From the NCBI GenBank assembly GCA_943330915.2, contig CALQJO020000032.1, forward strand, positions 1 through 32,171: DNA of 32,171 bases. The letters are read 5' to 3'. The position numbers were made by a program, and so were the translations under genes. Positions 5,570-14,566 of the stretch are shown in pieces. Each line of letters starts with the position of its first letter. Position 1 is the first letter of the stretch. The notes under the pieces were generated by a model, which saw nothing but the letters and a program-made list of their open reading frames with translations, ran no database searches and was not told the origin of the DNA. This DNA comes from Rhodoferax sp. OV413 (GTDB lineage: Bacteria > Pseudomonadota > Gammaproteobacteria > Pseudomonadales > Pseudohongiellaceae).

Positions 5570-5764
5570 GCATTGAACGTCAACGGGGCGGTGCGTGAGG
5601 TGGACGTATAGCCATCCACCCCGCTCCTGTATGGACTGCGTAATGACCTGGCGTTGCGCGGGCCGCGCTTCGGCTGCGGCCTTGGGCAGTGCGGGGCCTG
5701 CACCGTGCTGATCGATGGGGCGGCAGTGCGTTCCTGCGTGCTGCCTGTCTCCGCTGTCAGCGGG
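5570..5764 (+). pseudogene. Fragment of a [2Fe-2S] subunit of a molybdenum hydroxylase
   Basis: One frame reads ALNVNGAVREVDV-stop-PSTPLLYGLRNDLALRG, then PRFGCGLGQCGACTVLIDG and AVRSCVLPVSAVSG. This is the N-terminal ferredoxin domain of xanthine-dehydrogenase-type enzymes of the isoquinoline 1-oxidoreductase alpha-subunit group, with the CGLGQCGAC cluster motif at 5675-5701 intact. A TAG at 5609-5611 interrupts it, and homology ends near 5762, where the frame-shifted AbiEi remnant takes over. The second (C-terminal) [2Fe-2S] domain and the partner molybdopterin subunit are missing. It is dead debris. Confidence 0.8.
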
Positions 5765-6336
5765 GCGATGACGTAGGCTATGAAGGTGCTGTGTATGCAT
5801 TGCAACATCAAGCTGGCCTCAGCATTCACCCGAGCGGTAAAACCGCCTTAAGCTTGCTCGGCAAAGCGCACTATCTACCCCTTGCAACCAAGCGTGTTTC
5901 ACTGATGGGACATCAGGGGGAGCGCCTTCCCAGCTGGTTCCTCCAACACAAATGGCATGTTGATGTAGACTATTTCACCACGTCGAGCCTGCCAGCCCAT
6001 GATGGTCTTACAACCATAGAAATAGACGGGTTTTCCATAAGAATCTCCAGCGCCCCCAGAGCGATGCTGGAATGCTTACTGCTATCAAAAAATTCAGCAG
6101 ATTTTGTTGAGTGTTACCAACTGATGGAAGGCCTCAACAATCTGAAACCCTCAGCTGTACAAGAGCTGCTTGAAAAATGCACTTCAATAAAAGTAAAGCG
6201 GCTTTTTCTGTTTATGGCGGATAAGGCCGGACATGAATGGCTAGGCCATCTGGACATGGAAAAAGTAAACCTTGGTTCTGGCAAACGTAGCCTGGTTCAC
6301 GATGGCGCCTACAACAGCAAGTATCACTTTTACTGA
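5764..6336 (+). pseudogene. abiEi: AbiEi-type antitoxin lacking its N-terminal domain
   Basis: From GDDVGYEGAVYALQHQAGLS onward the sequence matches the C-terminal two thirds of type IV antitoxins of the AbiEi family (GKTALSLLGKAHYL, ERLPSWFLQHKWHV, PRAMLECLLLSKNSADFVEC, VNLGSGKRSLVHDG). The N-terminal winged helix, which binds the abiE promoter in intact systems, is absent. Its place is taken by the out-of-frame [2Fe-2S] fragment, with the joint near 5762. An open frame starts at 5689 only because it runs through that fragment. AbiEi neutralises the AbiEii nucleotidyltransferase indirectly; the toxin remnant follows after five bases. I judge this a remnant, although a C-terminal peptide could still be made. 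Confidence 0.78.
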
Positions 6337-6341
6337 GCGTC

Positions 6342-6887
6342 TTGCCCGAAGTTGCCAAAGAGTCCTGCTTTGCATTGCATGGCGGTACTGCTTTAAATTT
6401 GTTTGTCCGAGAAATGCCCCGTCTTTCTGTTGATATTGATTTGACCTACCTGCCATTGGAAGACAGGCTGTCCACGCTAATCAAAATCAACACTGCACTT
6501 GATGAAATAAAAACAGGGTCCCTGCTGTGTTTGCTAAGTAGCGACAGGCCTATAAGTGAAGTACTGAACCCGAATCTCATAGACCAGCGACAAACGCTGG
6601 CCAACCACTTTGACGGTATGGCCACAGAGCCTTTCACTTACGATGATTTTGAGGCTACAAGGGCGCAACTGATTGGCAGTATTCGGGCAAGCCTTACCGC
6701 TGCCGACAAACAATTCCTGCTGAGCTTCAAAAACCTCAAGCCTGACTGGGGCATCCATAACTTTGAAATGTTCCCTGCCATTCAGTGGAAACTTCAGAAT
6801 CTTCAGAAGCTAAAGGACCGCAATTCCGCAAAGCATTTAGAACTCTTGCAGAGACTGGAGCGACAAATTGCGTCGTATGAATCATGA
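6342..6887 (+). pseudogene. abiEii: AbiEii-type nucleotidyltransferase toxin with large internal deletion
   Basis: The N-terminal nucleotidyltransferase motif is intact (FALHGGTALNLFVREMPRLS, then VDIDLTYLPLEDR), with GG and DxD residues. After NTALDEIKT the sequence jumps directly to what is normally the C-terminal third (LLCLLSSDRPISEVLNPNLI, FLLSFKNLKPDW, AIQWKLQNLQKL). The roughly 100 residues usually between, including the basic VNPVxRG-like strand and the YAGKLVAALDRQHPRDLFD-like helix, are gone with the frame kept. The protein is 181 aa, against about 290-300 in the family. The frame is open back to 6291 (QQQVSLLLSVLPEVAKE) but has no usual start there, so the true start is probably also lost. 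A toxic enzyme is unlikely. Confidence 0.78.
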
Positions 6888-7308
6888 CAATGTGGCGGAT
6901 GTGCATAGTTACCTGGAGGGCATCGATGTATTGGTCGGCACTTCCATGGGTGGTTTTCTGGTGTCGCGTTTGTCTGCTGACATTGGCAAACCCTACATTG
7001 CCATCAACCCTGTGATGGATGTTGCCGCCACACTCAACAAGCATCTGGGCACACATCAGGATCACTTTGGTAGGCCATTTACGCTGACTGACCAAGTCGT
7101 TTCCAGCTATCCGGGGTTCCTGCCCTCACGCCATGGCATGGTGCTGCTGGATATGGCTGACGAGGTACTTGATTCAGCAGCGACGTATGAAAGGCTACAT
7201 CAGCAAATGACTGTGCATGTGTTTGAGGGTGGCAATCATCGGTTTATGCATATGCACGAGTCTTTACCGTTGATTGGTGGTTTTTTGGGAGGATTACCCT
7301 ATTCCTGA
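6877..7308 (+). pseudogene. YcfP/YqiA-like alpha/beta hydrolase lacking its N-terminus
   Basis: The visible 143 residues begin MNHDNVADVHSYLEG and contain a nucleophile elbow (VLVGTSMGGFLVSRLS), a late acid (VLLDMADEVLD) and a final His (VFEGGNHRFMHMHE). This is the pattern of the UPF0227/YqiA esterase family. Intact members start with a strand and an oxyanion loop of the type YLHGFxSxP about 45-60 residues earlier; this part is missing because the AbiEii remnant abuts it. The apparent start codon overlaps the end of that remnant by 11 bases. The 3' end overlaps the convergent fic stop codon by ten bases, and this junction seems to be the one duplicated at 1091-1319. Confidence 0.72.
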
Positions 7309-8456
7309 TTCAGGATTTCAATATAGGCGCTATAGGCAAACACGCGGTTGCGTTTCTGTCCGGTGAGTTCACGCACCAGCGCCAGTTCGGGCTGCGCCAA
7401 TTTATCCATGACTTTGCCGGCGGTGGCGGCGCTTATATTGCCGTGTTCTACGAGGGTGTTGATATTGGCAATGGGGTATTCAAAGAGCACGTCCAATACC
7501 TGTTGGGCCGACGGAGCCATTCGCCCGAGGCCGCTGAGCCGGTCGCGGTCTACCTGGCGCAGTTGCTTAAGTTGTTGGGCGGTATTCACGGCCTGGTTGG
7601 CCGTTTCCGCCACGGCATCCACAAAGAACAACAGCCAACTTTCCCAGTCGCCACTGATGCGTACCTGTTGCAGGCGGTCGTAATAAACCTGACGGTGTTT
7701 TTTGAAAAATACCGACAAGTACAGCAGTGGTTCACTCAATACATTGGCGGCCACCAGTATGAGCGGGATCAGCAAGCGACCCAGGCGGCCGTTTCCATCC
7801 ATAAACGGGTGGATGGTTTCAAACTGCACATGGGCGAGAGCGGCTTTGATGAGAGGGTCCGTCGCTTCAGGAACATCATTGAGAAAGCGCTCTAGTTCTG
7901 CCCAGCAGTTAGCTAGTTCGTTGGCGGGTGCGGGTACAAAAATGGCTTCGTCGGCACGATGACCGCCAATCCAGACTTGATTCTGTCTGAATTCGCCCGG
8001 CCCCTTATTGATTCCTCGCCCGGAGGTCATCAGGGCCTGGTGCAACTCAGTCAGCAGCCGAAAGGCGATTGGCTGGCCTTCGCGGATTCGCCTGACACCC
8101 AGTTCCAGCGCACTCACATAGCAGGAGACTTCCTGCACATCGTGCATGGGTACGCCCGGTACGCCGTCCATCTCGTAGAGCATCAGGTCACTCAGGGAGG
8201 ATTGCGTCCCTTCAATCCGGGACGACATGACGGCCTCTTTGCGCACATAGCTGTAGAGGAACAGGCGGGCATCCGGAAGCAGAACGCTAATAGCATCGAG
8301 ACGGCCAAGGGCCAGCATAGCCAGGTTAATGCGACTCTGCAGCCTGTTGTCCAGTTGCAGCGGCGGCTGAGGTGGCAAAGGGTCAGGTATAAACGCCTGG
8401 CAATTTACCCCGCCCGCGATGCTGGCCGTGTATTGACCGGTGATGCCCCGCTCCAT
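7299..8456 (-). CDS. Fic-domain protein with C-terminal winged helix (class II Fic)
   Basis: The 385-aa protein carries the full Fic signature HPFMDGNGRLGR at residues 216-227, with catalytic His and the ATP-phosphate loop. It also has the inhibitory helix motif SSRIEG (S-x3-E-G) at 78-83, so it is an autoinhibited class II Fic enzyme that should transfer AMP to a protein hydroxyl, including itself. An N-terminal Fic_N region (VRKEAVMSSRIEGTQSSLSD) precedes the core, and residues 300-385 form a winged helix (QQVLDVLFEYPIANINTLVE). Enzymes of this layout often stand alone and may bind their own promoter. That fits the 40-bp tandem repeat just upstream. TGAGGAAACACC precedes the ATG, a good ribosome site. 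The target protein is unknown. Confidence 0.92.
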   Translation of the reverse strand: MERGITGQYTASIAGGVNCQAFIPDPLPPQPPLQLDNRLQSRINLAMLALGRLDAISVLLPDARLFLYSYVRKEAVMSSRIEGTQSSLSDLMLYEMDGVPGVPMHDVQEVSCYVSALELGVRRIREGQPIAFRLLTELHQALMTSGRGINKGPGEFRQNQVWIGGHRADEAIFVPAPANELANCWAELERFLNDVPEATDPLIKAALAHVQFETIHPFMDGNGRLGRLLIPLILVAANVLSEPLLYLSVFFKKHRQVYYDRLQQVRISGDWESWLLFFVDAVAETANQAVNTAQQLKQLRQVDRDRLSGLGRMAPSAQQVLDVLFEYPIANINTLVEHGNISAATAGKVMDKLAQPELALVRELTGQKRNRVFAYSAYIEILNQE

Positions 8457-11477: not shown

Positions 11478-13142
11478 ATGCTCAATCGCCTCAAGGCCTT
11501 GTATCCCATGCGTTACTTCGTTCTGCTGCTGTGTATTGGCTTGTCCTTGCTCAGCTTGTTCGCCCTTGTGGCTACGGGCAATGGCGCGGTGGTATTTATC
11601 GCGAGCACGGCGCTGACCATCGTGGGCATCCGTGATTTGCAGCAGCGCACAAGTTCAGTGCGGCGCAATTACCCCATCATGGGACACTTCCGCTTCATGT
11701 TGGAGTCGATCCGTCCCGAGTTGCGCCAGTACTTTCTGGAAAGCGACACCGAGGCCGCGCCGTTTTCGCGCAACCAACGTTCTCTGGCCTATTCGCGCGC
11801 TAAAGGCGAGTCCGACAAACGCCCCTTCGGCACCCAACTCGATGTCAATGCCAACGGTCATGAGTGGATCAACCACGCCATGGTGCCGACCGACGTCGCC
11901 TCTTGCGATTTCCGGGTTCGCATTGGCGGTGCCGACTGCCTACAACCTTATGAGGCCAGCGTGTTCAACATCTCGGCCATGAGCTTTGGCTCGCTCTCAG
12001 CCAACGCCATTCAAGCGCTCAACGCAGGCGCGAAACGTGGTGGCTTTGCGCACGACACGGGCGAAGGCTCGATCTCCCAATGGCACCGTGTGCACGGCGG
12101 CGACTTGATTTGGGAAATCGGATCAGGCTACTTCGGTTGCCGCGACAGCGAAGGGCGCTTCAACCCCGAAGCCTTTGCCGCCAACGCCTTGCAGCCGCAG
12201 GTCAAAATGATCGAGATCAAGCTCAGCCAAGGCGCCAAACCAGGACACGGCGGTGTGTTGCCCGGCTCCAAGGTGACCGAAGAAATTGCCCAAGCGCGGG
12301 GAGTCCCGATGGGCGAGGACTGTGTGTCGCCCGCCGCGCACAGCGCGTTTTCCACGCCGCGTGAGCTCATGGCCTTCATCACTGAGCTGCGCGAACTCAG
12401 CCATGGCAAACCCGTTGGCTTCAAGCTGTGTGTGGGTCACCCATGGGAGTTGTTTTCGCTGGTCAAGGCCATGCAAGACACCGGCATCACGCCTGACTTC
12501 ATCGTTGTCGACGGCGCAGAAGGCGGCACGGGTGCAGCGCCTTTGGAATTTTCCGACCACGTCGGCACACCGCTCCAAGAAGGTTTGCGTTTAGTGCACA
12601 ACACCTTGGTGGGAGTGGGTCTGCGCGACCGCATTGCACTGGGCGCCTCGGGCAAGGTGATCAGCGCGTTTGACATCGCACGCGCTATGGCCTTGGGTGC
12701 CGACTGGTGCAACAGCGCACGTGGCTTCATGTTCGCTTTGGGCTGTATCCAGGCGCAGACTTGTCACACGGGTGAATGCCCCACCGGCGTGACCACTCAA
12801 GACCCGCTGCGCCAGCGAGGCTTAGTGGTGCCCGACAAAGCCTCTCGTGTGTACAACTTTCACCATGAAACGCTGAAGGCCTTGCGCGAGTTGGTGCAAG
12901 CCGCAGGCTTGCAGCACCCCAGAGACATCACCGCCGATCACATTGTGCGCCGCGTGAATGACCACGAGGTGCACCTGATGTCCAAACTATTACCGGAGAT
13001 GACCGCTGGCGCTTTGCTCACAGATGCGGAGCACCAAGACAGCGTCTTCCGCGCCTATTGGAATCGCTGCAACAGCAACAGCTTCGCATTGCACAGCGCT
13101 GGTCATCAGGCAACGCTTTCAAACATCAGGACTACTCTTTGA
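11478..13142 (+). CDS. Membrane-anchored FMN-binding glutamate-synthase-family protein
   Basis: The ATG has AGGAG five bases upstream; a GTG at 11463 is less likely. Two hydrophobic segments (residues about 10-45, YFVLLLCIGLSLLSLFALVA and AVVFIASTALTIVGI) anchor the 554-aa protein. The rest matches the central and FMN domains of GltB-type enzymes: ISAMSFGSLSANAIQALNAG, GAKPGHGGVLPGSKV, FIVVDGAEGGTGAAPLEFSD and LGADWCNSARGFMFALGCIQ. The cysteines C-x5-C-x4-C in CIQAQTCHTGECPTGV are those of the [3Fe-4S] cluster. It lacks the glutaminase and GXGXG domains, so it is not a full glutamate synthase; its substrate is not established. Codon choice (many TTG Leu codons) looks different from the neighbours, which suggests transfer, possibly from Betaproteobacteria (impression, not computed). 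The end overlaps the convergent gene by 24 bp. Confidence 0.9.
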   Translation: MLNRLKALYPMRYFVLLLCIGLSLLSLFALVATGNGAVVFIASTALTIVGIRDLQQRTSSVRRNYPIMGHFRFMLESIRPELRQYFLESDTEAAPFSRNQRSLAYSRAKGESDKRPFGTQLDVNANGHEWINHAMVPTDVASCDFRVRIGGADCLQPYEASVFNISAMSFGSLSANAIQALNAGAKRGGFAHDTGEGSISQWHRVHGGDLIWEIGSGYFGCRDSEGRFNPEAFAANALQPQVKMIEIKLSQGAKPGHGGVLPGSKVTEEIAQARGVPMGEDCVSPAAHSAFSTPRELMAFITELRELSHGKPVGFKLCVGHPWELFSLVKAMQDTGITPDFIVVDGAEGGTGAAPLEFSDHVGTPLQEGLRLVHNTLVGVGLRDRIALGASGKVISAFDIARAMALGADWCNSARGFMFALGCIQAQTCHTGECPTGVTTQDPLRQRGLVVPDKASRVYNFHHETLKALRELVQAAGLQHPRDITADHIVRRVNDHEVHLMSKLLPEMTAGALLTDAEHQDSVFRAYWNRCNSNSFALHSAGHQATLSNIRTTL

Positions 13143-13928
13143 CTCAAAAATGCCACAGTAGCCTGCAATAGCAACACGGATTTTTTCCTGTGTTGCCTCA
13201 AAGGTGCCAGGTATCCGTATTTGTGTATTTTCATCCATGTAAATGTCCCTGCGAACTTCGATCATCACAGACTCGACCCTTTTGTCGAGATGGTAGTAAC
13301 CCTGCGCAACTAAGGAGCCTGAGAACGGGCTGTTTAAGGCTACACTGCGTCCAGAGCGCCCAAATGCATTAACGAGCCAGTCGGCGAGCTGTTTAGGTGT
13401 GTGATACTCGTCCGTTCCAATGCAAATGTCCCGTCGATCTGCGCCTGGTGAGTTTTCATAAGGTAGCGCTTTTTTGGGAAAACTATGGCAGTCAATAATC
13501 AGGCAGCGGCCGTGGCACTTGATTGCATTTTCAACAGCGTTAGAAAGCCGCAGATGATGAGGACGGTACCATTGGTTAATTAGCTCATCTCGCTCGTGCT
13601 GGCTAATTGGCCTGCGTAGGGTTTTAGAATCATGGGTCTGTGTGTAGACAACGCCCATTCCCACGCCGCTCATCGGCTCTAAGGCGTCATCCTCGAATCG
13701 CTCCACATCAACCACCAGCCTGCTAACAGGGGCGGCTACGATCTGTGAGCTATTCACGCCTTGCCCGAACAAGTCGTGAGTGTGGTGGTCAGTCATTTTC
13801 AGAACTTCGTCATTAAGTTCAGCGTCACTCAAGGTGAACTGATCACGTACACCGGCCGGTATCCATGTTGAATTGTGCGGGATATGCAAAACAACCCATG
13901 TCGCTAATCTTGTTATACCTTTAGCCAT
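13119..13928 (-). CDS. N-formylglutamate amidohydrolase family protein
   Basis: The 269-aa protein shows the family pattern: WVVLHIPHNSTWIP near the N-terminus, MTDHHTHDLF, VVDVERFEDD, LIIDCHSFPKKALPYE with the conserved DCHS, then DICIGTDEYHTP and SVMIEVRRDIYMDE with the late Glu/Arg. Such enzymes are zinc hydrolases related to carboxypeptidase M14. The best-known one cleaves N-formyl-L-glutamate to formate and glutamate in histidine breakdown. No hut genes are nearby, so the true substrate may differ. The start codon overlaps the end of the 119-aa gene upstream by eight bases, so the two are translated from one message that begins with the structured leader at 14281-14405. Confidence 0.85.
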   Translation of the reverse strand: MAKGITRLATWVVLHIPHNSTWIPAGVRDQFTLSDAELNDEVLKMTDHHTHDLFGQGVNSSQIVAAPVSRLVVDVERFEDDALEPMSGVGMGVVYTQTHDSKTLRRPISQHERDELINQWYRPHHLRLSNAVENAIKCHGRCLIIDCHSFPKKALPYENSPGADRRDICIGTDEYHTPKQLADWLVNAFGRSGRSVALNSPFSGSLVAQGYYHLDKRVESVMIEVRRDIYMDENTQIRIPGTFEATQEKIRVAIAGYCGIFESKSSPDV

Positions 13929-14280
13929 ACGCCACCTCCGGGTCTGTTATGTCAATAACCTCAGCCCTGAGGCCTAAGCCTATTGATTGCCATACCTCTT
14001 CATCAAGTTCAAAACCAACAGCGTCAAACTCCTCACGCAGTTCCTCGGGTGTAAACGTTCCAGCATACTGCCGGGATCTCAGAGCATCCTCGGTTGAAGA
14101 ATACAGTTCCCAACGTTTGCCTTTTTCGATCCTCTTTACCCAATAATTTGTGCGCCAATCACAACCGGGCATACCGGAGTACCAATGCTCTCCAAGATCG
14201 AACACGCGCTGGCGCGAGCGCGCTTTTTTGCCGCCAAAGAAGTCCGGATGAGATTTGATCGATGAGATATTTGCAGACAT
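13921..14280 (-). CDS. Unknown 119-aa protein, first gene of the leader-controlled operon
   Basis: The protein begins MSANISSIKSHPDFFGGKKA and is rich in charged and aromatic residues (HWYSGMPGCDWRTNYWVKRI, EELREEFDAVGFELDEEVWQ). No signal, membrane segment or familiar motif is visible. I do not recognise the family. Two facts support it as real: its stop overlaps the start of the amidohydrolase-like gene, and its ATG follows directly on a promoter, a structured leader and a terminator-like hairpin. The only Shine-Dalgarno-like sequence (GGGGG, seven bases before the ATG) lies in the 3' arm of that hairpin, so folding should also block translation. It may be an accessory or substrate-handling partner of the hydrolase (inference). 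Confidence 0.7.
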   Translation of the reverse strand: MSANISSIKSHPDFFGGKKARSRQRVFDLGEHWYSGMPGCDWRTNYWVKRIEKGKRWELYSSTEDALRSRQYAGTFTPEELREEFDAVGFELDEEVWQSIGLGLRAEVIDITDPEVAYG

Positions 14281-14311
14281 AAAAAAACCCCCAGTTGGTA
14301 ATCCAATGGAG
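14281..14311 (-). terminator. Intrinsic-terminator-like hairpin abutting the start codon
   Basis: On the transcribed strand CUCCAUUGG pairs with CCAA-C-UGGGG around an AUUA loop, nine pairs with one bulge, then G and seven U residues that touch the AUG at 14280. A terminator inside a 5' leader, rather than after a gene, is the usual sign of attenuation. Its 5' arm touches the 3' strand of the leader's closing stem. Confidence 0.65.
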
Positions 14312-14405
14312 GCTGACGCTGTCGTTGCCTTGCGGCCACATTCCCTTTCGGGGTACCACCTTGCACAGCTGCAGGTTGGCGGGGCGTCAGCCCTCTCTTA
14401 ATGAT
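14308..14405 (-). ncRNA. Structured leader RNA, candidate riboswitch of unrecognised class
   Basis: The RNA is closed by a perfect 9-bp stem, GGCUGACGC (14392-14384) with GCGUCAGCC (14319-14311), which can extend to about 12 pairs with one bulge. Inside lie three arms: ACCUGCA-GCUG-UGC-A-AGGU (7 pairs, one bulged A, about 14375-14357), CCC-GAAA-GGG (14352-14343) and GCC-GCAA-GGC (14336-14327). The last two have GNRA tetraloops, which are frequent in folded RNAs. Unpaired joining segments (CCCCGCCA, GGUACC, AAUGUG, AACGACA) could form a binding pocket. The transcript should start near 14405. I compared it from memory with SAM, TPP, cobalamin, glycine, c-di-GMP, ZTP and twister-sister consensus features and found no full match. 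Class and ligand are unknown. Confidence 0.55.
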
Positions 14406-14411
14406 GGGAGG

Positions 14412-14441
14412 AGTATCTGCCTGGCCTGCTGCCGCTGTCAA
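14412..14441 (-). promoter_or_regulatory. Sigma70-like promoter of the leader RNA operon
   Basis: Read leftward, TTGACA (14441-14436) is a perfect -35 box and GATACT (14417-14412) a 4-of-6 -10 box, with an 18-bp spacer. The start point would be an A near 14405, giving a 125-nt leader to the ATG at 14280. Confidence 0.65.
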
Positions 14442-14494
14442 GCAGATGTTAGAGCTGCGTAGTCTAATTATTGCTCATCAATATCAAGTTAAGG

Positions 14495-14566
14495 CGCCAA
14501 AGTCCTTTGGCGTGGGTACGACCCGCTAACACCAGCCGGGGGGCCCGACAAGAGCCCCCGGGTTAG
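14495..14566. terminator. Two hairpins after the receptor gene
   Basis: CTAAC (14526-14530) and CCGGGGG (14536-14542) pair with CCCCCGG (14555-14561) and GTTAG (14562-14566), a very GC-rich hairpin 17 bp past the receptor stop codon. A second hairpin, CGCCAAAG-TC-CTTTGGCG, lies at 14495-14512. Neither has a clean U-tract in the receptor's direction, so they are probable 3'-end structures more than proven terminators. Confidence 0.5.

Follow-up and report, generated by a model that had tools for sequence, protein, structure and literature searches.

A predicted SAM-responsive OFF switch of the SAM-I/IV class before an orphan gene and an FGase-like hydrolase gene

The leader of a little-known gene pair on the minus strand of the window, by which we mean the whole 32,171-nt stretch of DNA analysed here, is predicted to be a SAM-responsive OFF switch of the SAM-I/IV riboswitch class, a reading to which we give a probability of about 0.84. 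The RNA matched this class in both sequence and structure, its alternative folds were nearly equal in energy, and the switching strand recurred in relatives with compensating changes. The novelty lies in the gene pair under control and in a long stem that most likely forms the "on" half of the switch. The preliminary description of this DNA had placed a cis-regulatory riboswitch or attenuator before an unknown/amidohydrolase operon, and this was borne out, with both termination and ribosome-binding-site (RBS) sequestering parts present. Its proposal of a candidate new class was overturned by the Rfam check, the result that it had itself named as refuting: RF01725 (SAM-I/IV) scored 54.7 bits against a curated cut-off of 41.1. 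The features are collected in Table 1.

Table 1. Coordinates of the leader elements and of the two genes behind them
Feature	Position in window	Strand	Details
Sigma-70-type promoter	14412..14441	(-)	TTGACA 14441-14436, 18-nt spacer, GATACT 14417-14412
SAM-I/IV riboswitch aptamer (RF01725)	14311..14409	(-)	full-length match, model positions 1-99 of 99
P1	14338..14404	(-)	closes aptamer junction; UCAUU 14404-14400 with AAUGU 14342-14338, one non-standard pair; from Rfam alignment
P2 hairpin	14382..14393	(-)	GGGC-UGAC-GCCC; mutually exclusive with antiterminator
P4 hairpin	14343..14352	(-)	CCC-GAAA-GGG; GAAA loop 14349-14346
P5 hairpin	14327..14336	(-)	GCC-GCAA-GGC; just 3' of P1, outside it; GCAA loop 14333-14330
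Candidate pseudoknot PK-2	14318..14369	(-)	P3 loop GCUGU 14369-14365 with tail ACAGC 14322-14318
Probable antiterminator (9-bp stem)	14310..14393	(-)	GGGCUGACGC 14393-14384 with GCGUCAGCCU 14319-14310
Predicted intrinsic terminator and RBS sequestor	14281..14312	(-)	14312-14303 with 14298-14288, bulged C14294
First gene, 119-aa protein	13921..14280	(-)	no Pfam match; under purifying selection
Second gene, FGase-domain hydrolase (PF05013)	13119..13928	(-)	overlaps first gene by 8 nt

Class assignment and layout of the leader

In the Rfam scan of the whole window, the RF01725 match had an E-value of 1.6e-6, and no other family was above its cut-off anywhere in the 32 kb. In a permissive scan of 301 nt (14200-14500) that listed matches up to E 1, RF01725 (E-value 1.5e-8) stood alone; the tool had dropped two weaker matches that overlapped it and belonged to families of the same clan. 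As a control, 14 named genomes were searched with RF01725, which matched one of them, below the cut-off. The P1, P2, P3 and P4 core and the conserved core bases are present in the window RNA. Alignment with the crystallised SAM-I/IV aptamer 4L81 (env87), whose RNA sequence was taken as printed in the available part of PMC5393176, kept CAACCUG, AAGGUG and the CAA after P5.

The two RNAs share the P1-P5 layout, the core sequences, the location in a 5' leader and a P2 that has no internal loop. In the window, P2 is a plain hairpin of 4 bp with a 4-nt loop, and SAM-I/IV variants without the P2 internal loop of SAM-I and SAM-IV are described in the accessible text of PMC2864571. They differ in that the P2 loop of the window, UGAC, would double as part of the antiterminator, whereas the 4L81 loop is GAGA, and in that the window element would control an orphan 119-aa gene and an FGase-like hydrolase gene. 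The element forms the 5' leader of a gene and comes with a promoter and an expression platform, which is a feature of membership in the class. Judged by sequence, the RNA is a member of the known class SAM-I/IV and not of a new one, and SAM is the expected ligand because the RF01725 match lies above the cut-off.

A pseudoknot between the P3 loop and the tail is found in 4L81 at the same place as PK-2 of the window; its strands, as read from the sequence in the available part of PMC5393176, are ACGGAC and GUCCGU. Taken alone, the PK-2 pairing of the window had a p-value of 0.23 against shuffles, and p was below 0.05 in 6 of 34 distinct leaders taken singly. Over the 34 leaders as a set, the mean was 12.5, which is higher than all 500 shuffled means (highest 11.5).

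Promoter, structured leader and U7 hairpin follow one another on the minus strand from 14441 to 14281. The -35/-10 promoter with an 18-bp spacer of the preliminary description was recovered on this strand. It agrees with the consensus at 10 of 12 bases (shuffled sequence would give 0.2 such sites) and is the sole promoter-like site within 14200-14550 (351 nt scanned), and the transcript is expected to start near 14405. By eye, a TTGACA or TTGACT and, 16-19 nt further on, a -10-like box were seen in G316, G412, G306 and G404, at a similar distance from the aptamer. The perfect 9-bp stem, the three arms and the two GNRA loops (GAAA and GCAA) described earlier were all present. So was the hairpin whose U7 (14287-14281) directly adjoins the AUG at 14280, and its 3' arm contains the only Shine-Dalgarno (SD)-like run seen before the AUG, GGGGG at 14292-14288. 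One detail had to be revised: the 9-bp stem had been taken as the stem that closes the junction, but the closing stem is P1, and the 9-bp stem is incompatible with P2.

The folding energy of the leader was unremarkable (z -1.31; 22 of 200 shuffles folded equally well) and by itself proves nothing. That the leader is beyond chance rests on the covariance-model E-value of 1.6e-6 and on 81-97% identity in five family relatives.

The P2-to-tail stem and the proposed switch

The 9-bp stem pairs GGCUGACGC with GCGUCAGCC (14392-14384 with 14319-14311) perfectly, or over 10 bp when a G-U is included. Since it uses the P2 5' strand and loop, it cannot coexist with P2. It belongs to the minimum-free-energy fold (-48.9 kcal/mol) and competes both with P2 and, over three bases (C, C and U), with the foot of the terminator. 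The terminator hairpin (14312-14288) has 10 pairs, the loop AUUA and an energy of -11.4 kcal/mol alone; a simple terminator scan of the region did not list it, presumably because of its bulge. Energies computed without ligand or pseudoknot were -48.9 kcal/mol for the ON fold and -47.7 kcal/mol for the OFF fold (P1, P2 and terminator). When the chain was folded as it grew, the aptamer was best at nt 78-84, at nt 90 P1 had gone but P2 remained, and from nt 96 the antiterminator stem won. With the terminator complete and 7 bp of the stem retained, the fold reached -48.8 kcal/mol, as good as the ON fold. Because the two coexist in this way, exclusion is incomplete by energy, so that the ON state could leak and the choice must rest on the folding order and the last three pairs.

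Family leaders were too alike for much covariation, and the order-level comparison was therefore used. Altogether 38 leaders were collected, from 30 of the 34 order-sample matches and 8 of the 11 family-sample matches. Order matches without a locus were left out (G229, G269, G144 and the second element of G051), as were the family matches of G000 and G044 (already included) and of G325 (contig end). In the shuffle test, 29 of the 30 order leaders were each compared with 300 shuffled tails; G009 was dropped, as it had no core recognisable by pattern. A helix between the P2 segment and the tail was significant (p<0.05) in 20 of these 29 leaders, which are not independent because related genomes, some of the same genus, are among them. 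For the window's own pairing, none of 300 shuffled tails did as well. The switch register (P2 5' strand plus loop) was used in 17 of the 20 significant leaders; in G044 and G040 the best helix lay elsewhere, and in G069 it took the P2 5' strand without the loop. The helix was not significant in 9 of the 29, and some of these use another platform. Conservation of the stem in relatives, on which the preliminary description had made its reading depend, thus held for the majority of the leaders and not for the remainder.

Compensating changes were observed from G-C to A-U at position 4 (G071, G046 and G034), from U-A to C-G at position 6 (G044), from G-C to A-U at position 7 (G008), and from U-A to C-G at position 11 (G258 versus the window). 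The pairing strands are AGGGCUGACGU/ACGUCAGCUCU in G258, AGGACUGACGU/ACGUCAGUUCU in G046 and GGCUAACGC/GCGUUAGCU in G008, and those of G186, GAGCCGGA/UCCGGCUC, are wholly different from the strands of the window. For the pair table, leaders had to have 8 or more of 11 positions paired, which 28 of the 38 did; these gave 19 distinct sequences. Being pre-selected on pairing, the table leans towards the helix and includes some chance alignments (e.g., G042, G079 and G054). When tails were swapped among 32 distinct P2 segments, none of 31 foreign tails equalled the own tail of G186. With the P2 of the window, 14 of 31 foreign tails paired as well as its own, because the motif is widely shared. An SD-burying hairpin or a terminator usually follows directly 3' of the tail strand (by eye). 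As the P2-to-tail pairing recurs in relatives with compensating changes, the 9-bp stem is most likely the SAM-free antiterminator.

We infer two states of the switch. With SAM bound, P1-P5 and the P3-loop pseudoknot would hold the aptamer, and P2 would keep GGGCUGACGC occupied. The CCUCC of the tail would then pair with GGGGG, RNA polymerase would stop at U7, and any read-through mRNA would have its ribosome-binding bases buried. When SAM is scarce, GGGCUGACGC would pair with GCGUCAGCCU and take CCU from the terminator foot; the GGG beside the U-run would be freed, and the 119-aa gene and the overlapping hydrolase gene would be expressed. Since the genes would be on when SAM is scarce, the operon would be a SAM/methionine-shortage response. 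In SAM-I (S-box) riboswitches, SAM stabilises the aptamer, the terminator forms and the gene is off, and the antiterminator of S-box leaders takes the P1 3' strand. The window switch would share this overall terminator/antiterminator logic. It would differ in the antiterminator, drawn from the P2 5' strand and loop, and in having P5 and the candidate PK-2 as additional elements.

The same riboswitch might act only or mainly on translation, with the stem and hairpin setting access to the RBS and U7 causing no termination. We consider this unlikely, although it deserves some weight: SD-sequestering hairpins without a U-run were seen by eye in the tails of G258, G071 and G046, the GGGGG of the window is terminator arm and RBS at once, and 7 bp of the stem are compatible with a complete terminator. 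Pure RBS control would, however, not need the 6-8 U that follow the hairpin in all seven leaders of alignment A2, and terminators with a U-run touching the AUG recur in G044, G107 and G181. It is very improbable that the 9-bp stem is instead a loop-tail pseudoknot of the SAM-bound aptamer and no antiterminator. It does involve the P2 loop and overlap the PK-2 tail region, but it also uses the P2 5' strand, so that P2 must open, and the 4L81 RNA, as given in the available part of PMC5393176, has a closed P2 with the GAGA loop and a tail paired with the P3 loop.

Other readings concern the ligand. A SAM-clan aptamer with changed specificity, for example for SAH or another adenosyl compound, would suit the atypical targets, and specificity is unreadable from sequence by the tools used. 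With the core consensus bases kept, and with relatives that control a PF01053 Cys/Met enzyme and probably metK (by eye), such a change is distinctly improbable. That the RNA is a new class of riboswitch whose ligand is formylglutamate, glutamate, folate or a related amide is hardly credible against a full-length RF01725 match well above the cut-off. The FGase domain of the second gene would fit such a class, as would an operon unlike the classical methionine operons, but few relatives have the FGase gene behind the leader (in G319 it is intact, in G316 decayed). For formylglutamate, glutamate and folates, the ligands suggested in the preliminary description, no support was found; the class binds SAM.

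Conservation of the leader and the genes behind it

The leader, read here as a SAM-I/IV OFF switch, has its 81-97% identical counterparts in G319, G316, G412, G306 and G391. In G404, it was 91% identical over 134 nt, with no AUG at the place of the window's AUG. Alignment A2 had a mean column identity of 91%, and its seven leaders all kept a CCUCC or CCCCC arm, the GGGGG and the U-run. Among 137 genomes of the bacterial family, RF01725 matched in 11, and DNA similar to the leader was found in 16, in some as short fragments only. Local alignments to G412, G306 and G404 begin close to the expected transcript start and run to the start codon, in G306 to some 40 nt beyond it. Truncated leader copies lie at L056:7611-7691, L058:6349-6401 and L050:12906-12948. 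G366 and G406 have a 5'-truncated leader beside the same alpha/beta-hydrolase-like gene, and G383 has the terminator end only.

Between the window and G412, the leader was 95% identical and the first-ORF protein 50%; fourfold sites agreed at 7 of 26, and synonymous sites were saturated. Order-wide, leader DNA identity exceeded first-ORF protein identity in 17 of 19 SAM-I/IV pairs (20 tried, one without an ORF), where genomes recur among the pairs and DNA and protein identity are different yardsticks. Examples, leader versus protein, are G042/G079 (93 and 65%) and G046/G001 (89 and 55%), and the exceptions were G071/G153 (89 and 92%) and G189/G168 (75 and 75%). We take this as a sign that the leader is under strong selection, with leader recombination as an alternative cause.

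The first gene showed dN/dS values of 0.07 versus G319 and 0.18 versus G316, and by these values the 119-aa ORF is one that behaves as a real gene. Its protein matched no Pfam-A family at E up to 1. The AlphaFold2 model (four strands, then helices) had a pLDDT of only 63.6, and a Foldseek search with this model gave no PDB match at E <= 0.001. The protein was found in 13 of the 137 family genomes, the window's own included and in part as fragments, and in no other genome among the 293 of the order sample and the 369 of the class sample. At the gene, RF01725 was matched in 7 of the 13 genomes (G000, G319, G316, G391, G412, G306 and G404). G383, G366 and G406 have only parts of the leader there, G366 with a full SAM-I/IV element elsewhere. 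For G401 and G300 (gene) and for G411 (fragment), no leader was found. A tblastn search with the gene (E 0.01) found no match in plasmids or phages, and none of 8 pattern matches in viral contigs encodes a relative; on these searches, a phage or plasmid origin was rejected.

The second gene matched PF05013 with an E-value of 5e-51 and the structure entry 2q7s with 4.4e-13, and its dN/dS versus G319 was 0.21. It reached 69.5 bits against the HutG equivalog (TIGR02017) cut-off of 278.75, and the label N-formylglutamate deformylase is therefore not earned. The FGase domain is common to HutG and the second gene, but the latter scores below the equivalog cut-off and is part of a SAM-riboswitch operon. 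In the family, 8 of the 137 genomes had FGase relatives, those in G387, G324 and G308 as weak or partial matches. Only G000, G319 and, decayed, G316 have the gene behind the riboswitch; the other relatives inspected had other or no close genes behind the 119-aa gene. FGase genes of G318 and G161 were 53-55% identical, and no riboswitch match was found in the flanks examined (L111 and L112). In the riboswitch operon of G316, the FGase gene lacks an internal stretch (L046:4786-5056), and another contig (L047/L049) carries what remains of an FGase copy, beside the window's TonB-receptor region.

A speculative role for the FGase-like hydrolase is the recovery of methionine from its N-formyl or N-acyl form. 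In Bacillota, the amidase/aminoacylase gene amhX is under T-box or SAM riboswitches according to the available part of PMC12452182, a case that is an analogy and not evidence for the window hydrolase. The literature searched contained no paper joining a SAM riboswitch with N-formylglutamate amidohydrolase or with MoxR, and nothing on topic was found for formylmethionine.

Other elements were noted nearby or in relatives. Behind the 119-aa relative of G404 (L057) lies an ATP-grasp-like gene (by eye), followed by a SAM_alpha (SAM-II) match (L041:2093-2167), which scored 36.7 bits, barely above the cut-off of 36, and precedes a 381-aa desaturase-like ORF (by eye). The window also contains an AbiEi/AbiEii-type toxin-antitoxin pair at 5689-6887 (+); in its second ORF, the AbiEii profile (238 positions) is matched at positions 8-60 only. 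A long ORF at 7299-8456 (-), Fic-like by eye, has a C-terminal stretch that is nearly repeated in the short ORF 1113-1493 (by eye).

SAM-I/IV targets in the order

RF01725 was found at E <= 0.001 in 33 of 293 order-sample genomes, 31 over the cut-off, and in 3 of 369 class-sample genomes, the window's included. In the order sample, 22 of the 30 leaders, again with the window's included, precede an ORF of at most 125 aa; the first-ORF rule was mechanical (first ATG ORF of at least 60 aa), and a few may be spurious frames. Twelve of the 22 small ORFs were searched in Pfam, and none reached the cut-off. A single small-protein family common to the leaders is not supported: when the 119-aa family profile was compared by hhalign with two further groups of small ORFs, the probabilities were 0.01 and 0.15 percent.

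The first gene is a PF01053 Cys/Met enzyme behind the leader of G009 and a Beta_elim_lyase (PF01212) enzyme behind that of G561, and the leader of G044 is followed by DUF3293 and then a metK-like gene (metK read by eye). MoxR-type ATPases lie behind leaders in G595, G140 and G186 (L107, L014 and L022; second ORF in G186), called by Pfam AAA_5/bpMoxR in G595 and by eye in G140 and G186. In G300 (L059), a partial 119-aa relative precedes a MoxR-like gene (by eye). G051 (L016) has two tandem SAM-I/IV elements 33 nt apart (C20:62262-62365 and 62399-62501).

Tentatively, and as a possibility that we would not count on, SAM-I/IV in this gammaproteobacterial order may control unrecognised, fast-evolving SAM-shortage genes and not the classical methionine genes. 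These would include unrelated small proteins, MoxR-type ATPases, and the 119-aa family with a methionine-recovering FGase-like hydrolase. As part of the same tentative reading, leaders that evolve slower than the proteins suggest that the regulatory response is old and that the small-protein effectors turn over.

The finding extends a validated RNA class and points to the strand on which the switch would turn: P2, not P1, would be traded for the antiterminator, a trade that shows compensating changes in several genera. It would also tie orphan genes (the 119-aa family, the FGase-like hydrolase, the small ORFs and the MoxR-type ATPases) to SAM supply, and this tie would be a testable handle on proteins without annotation.
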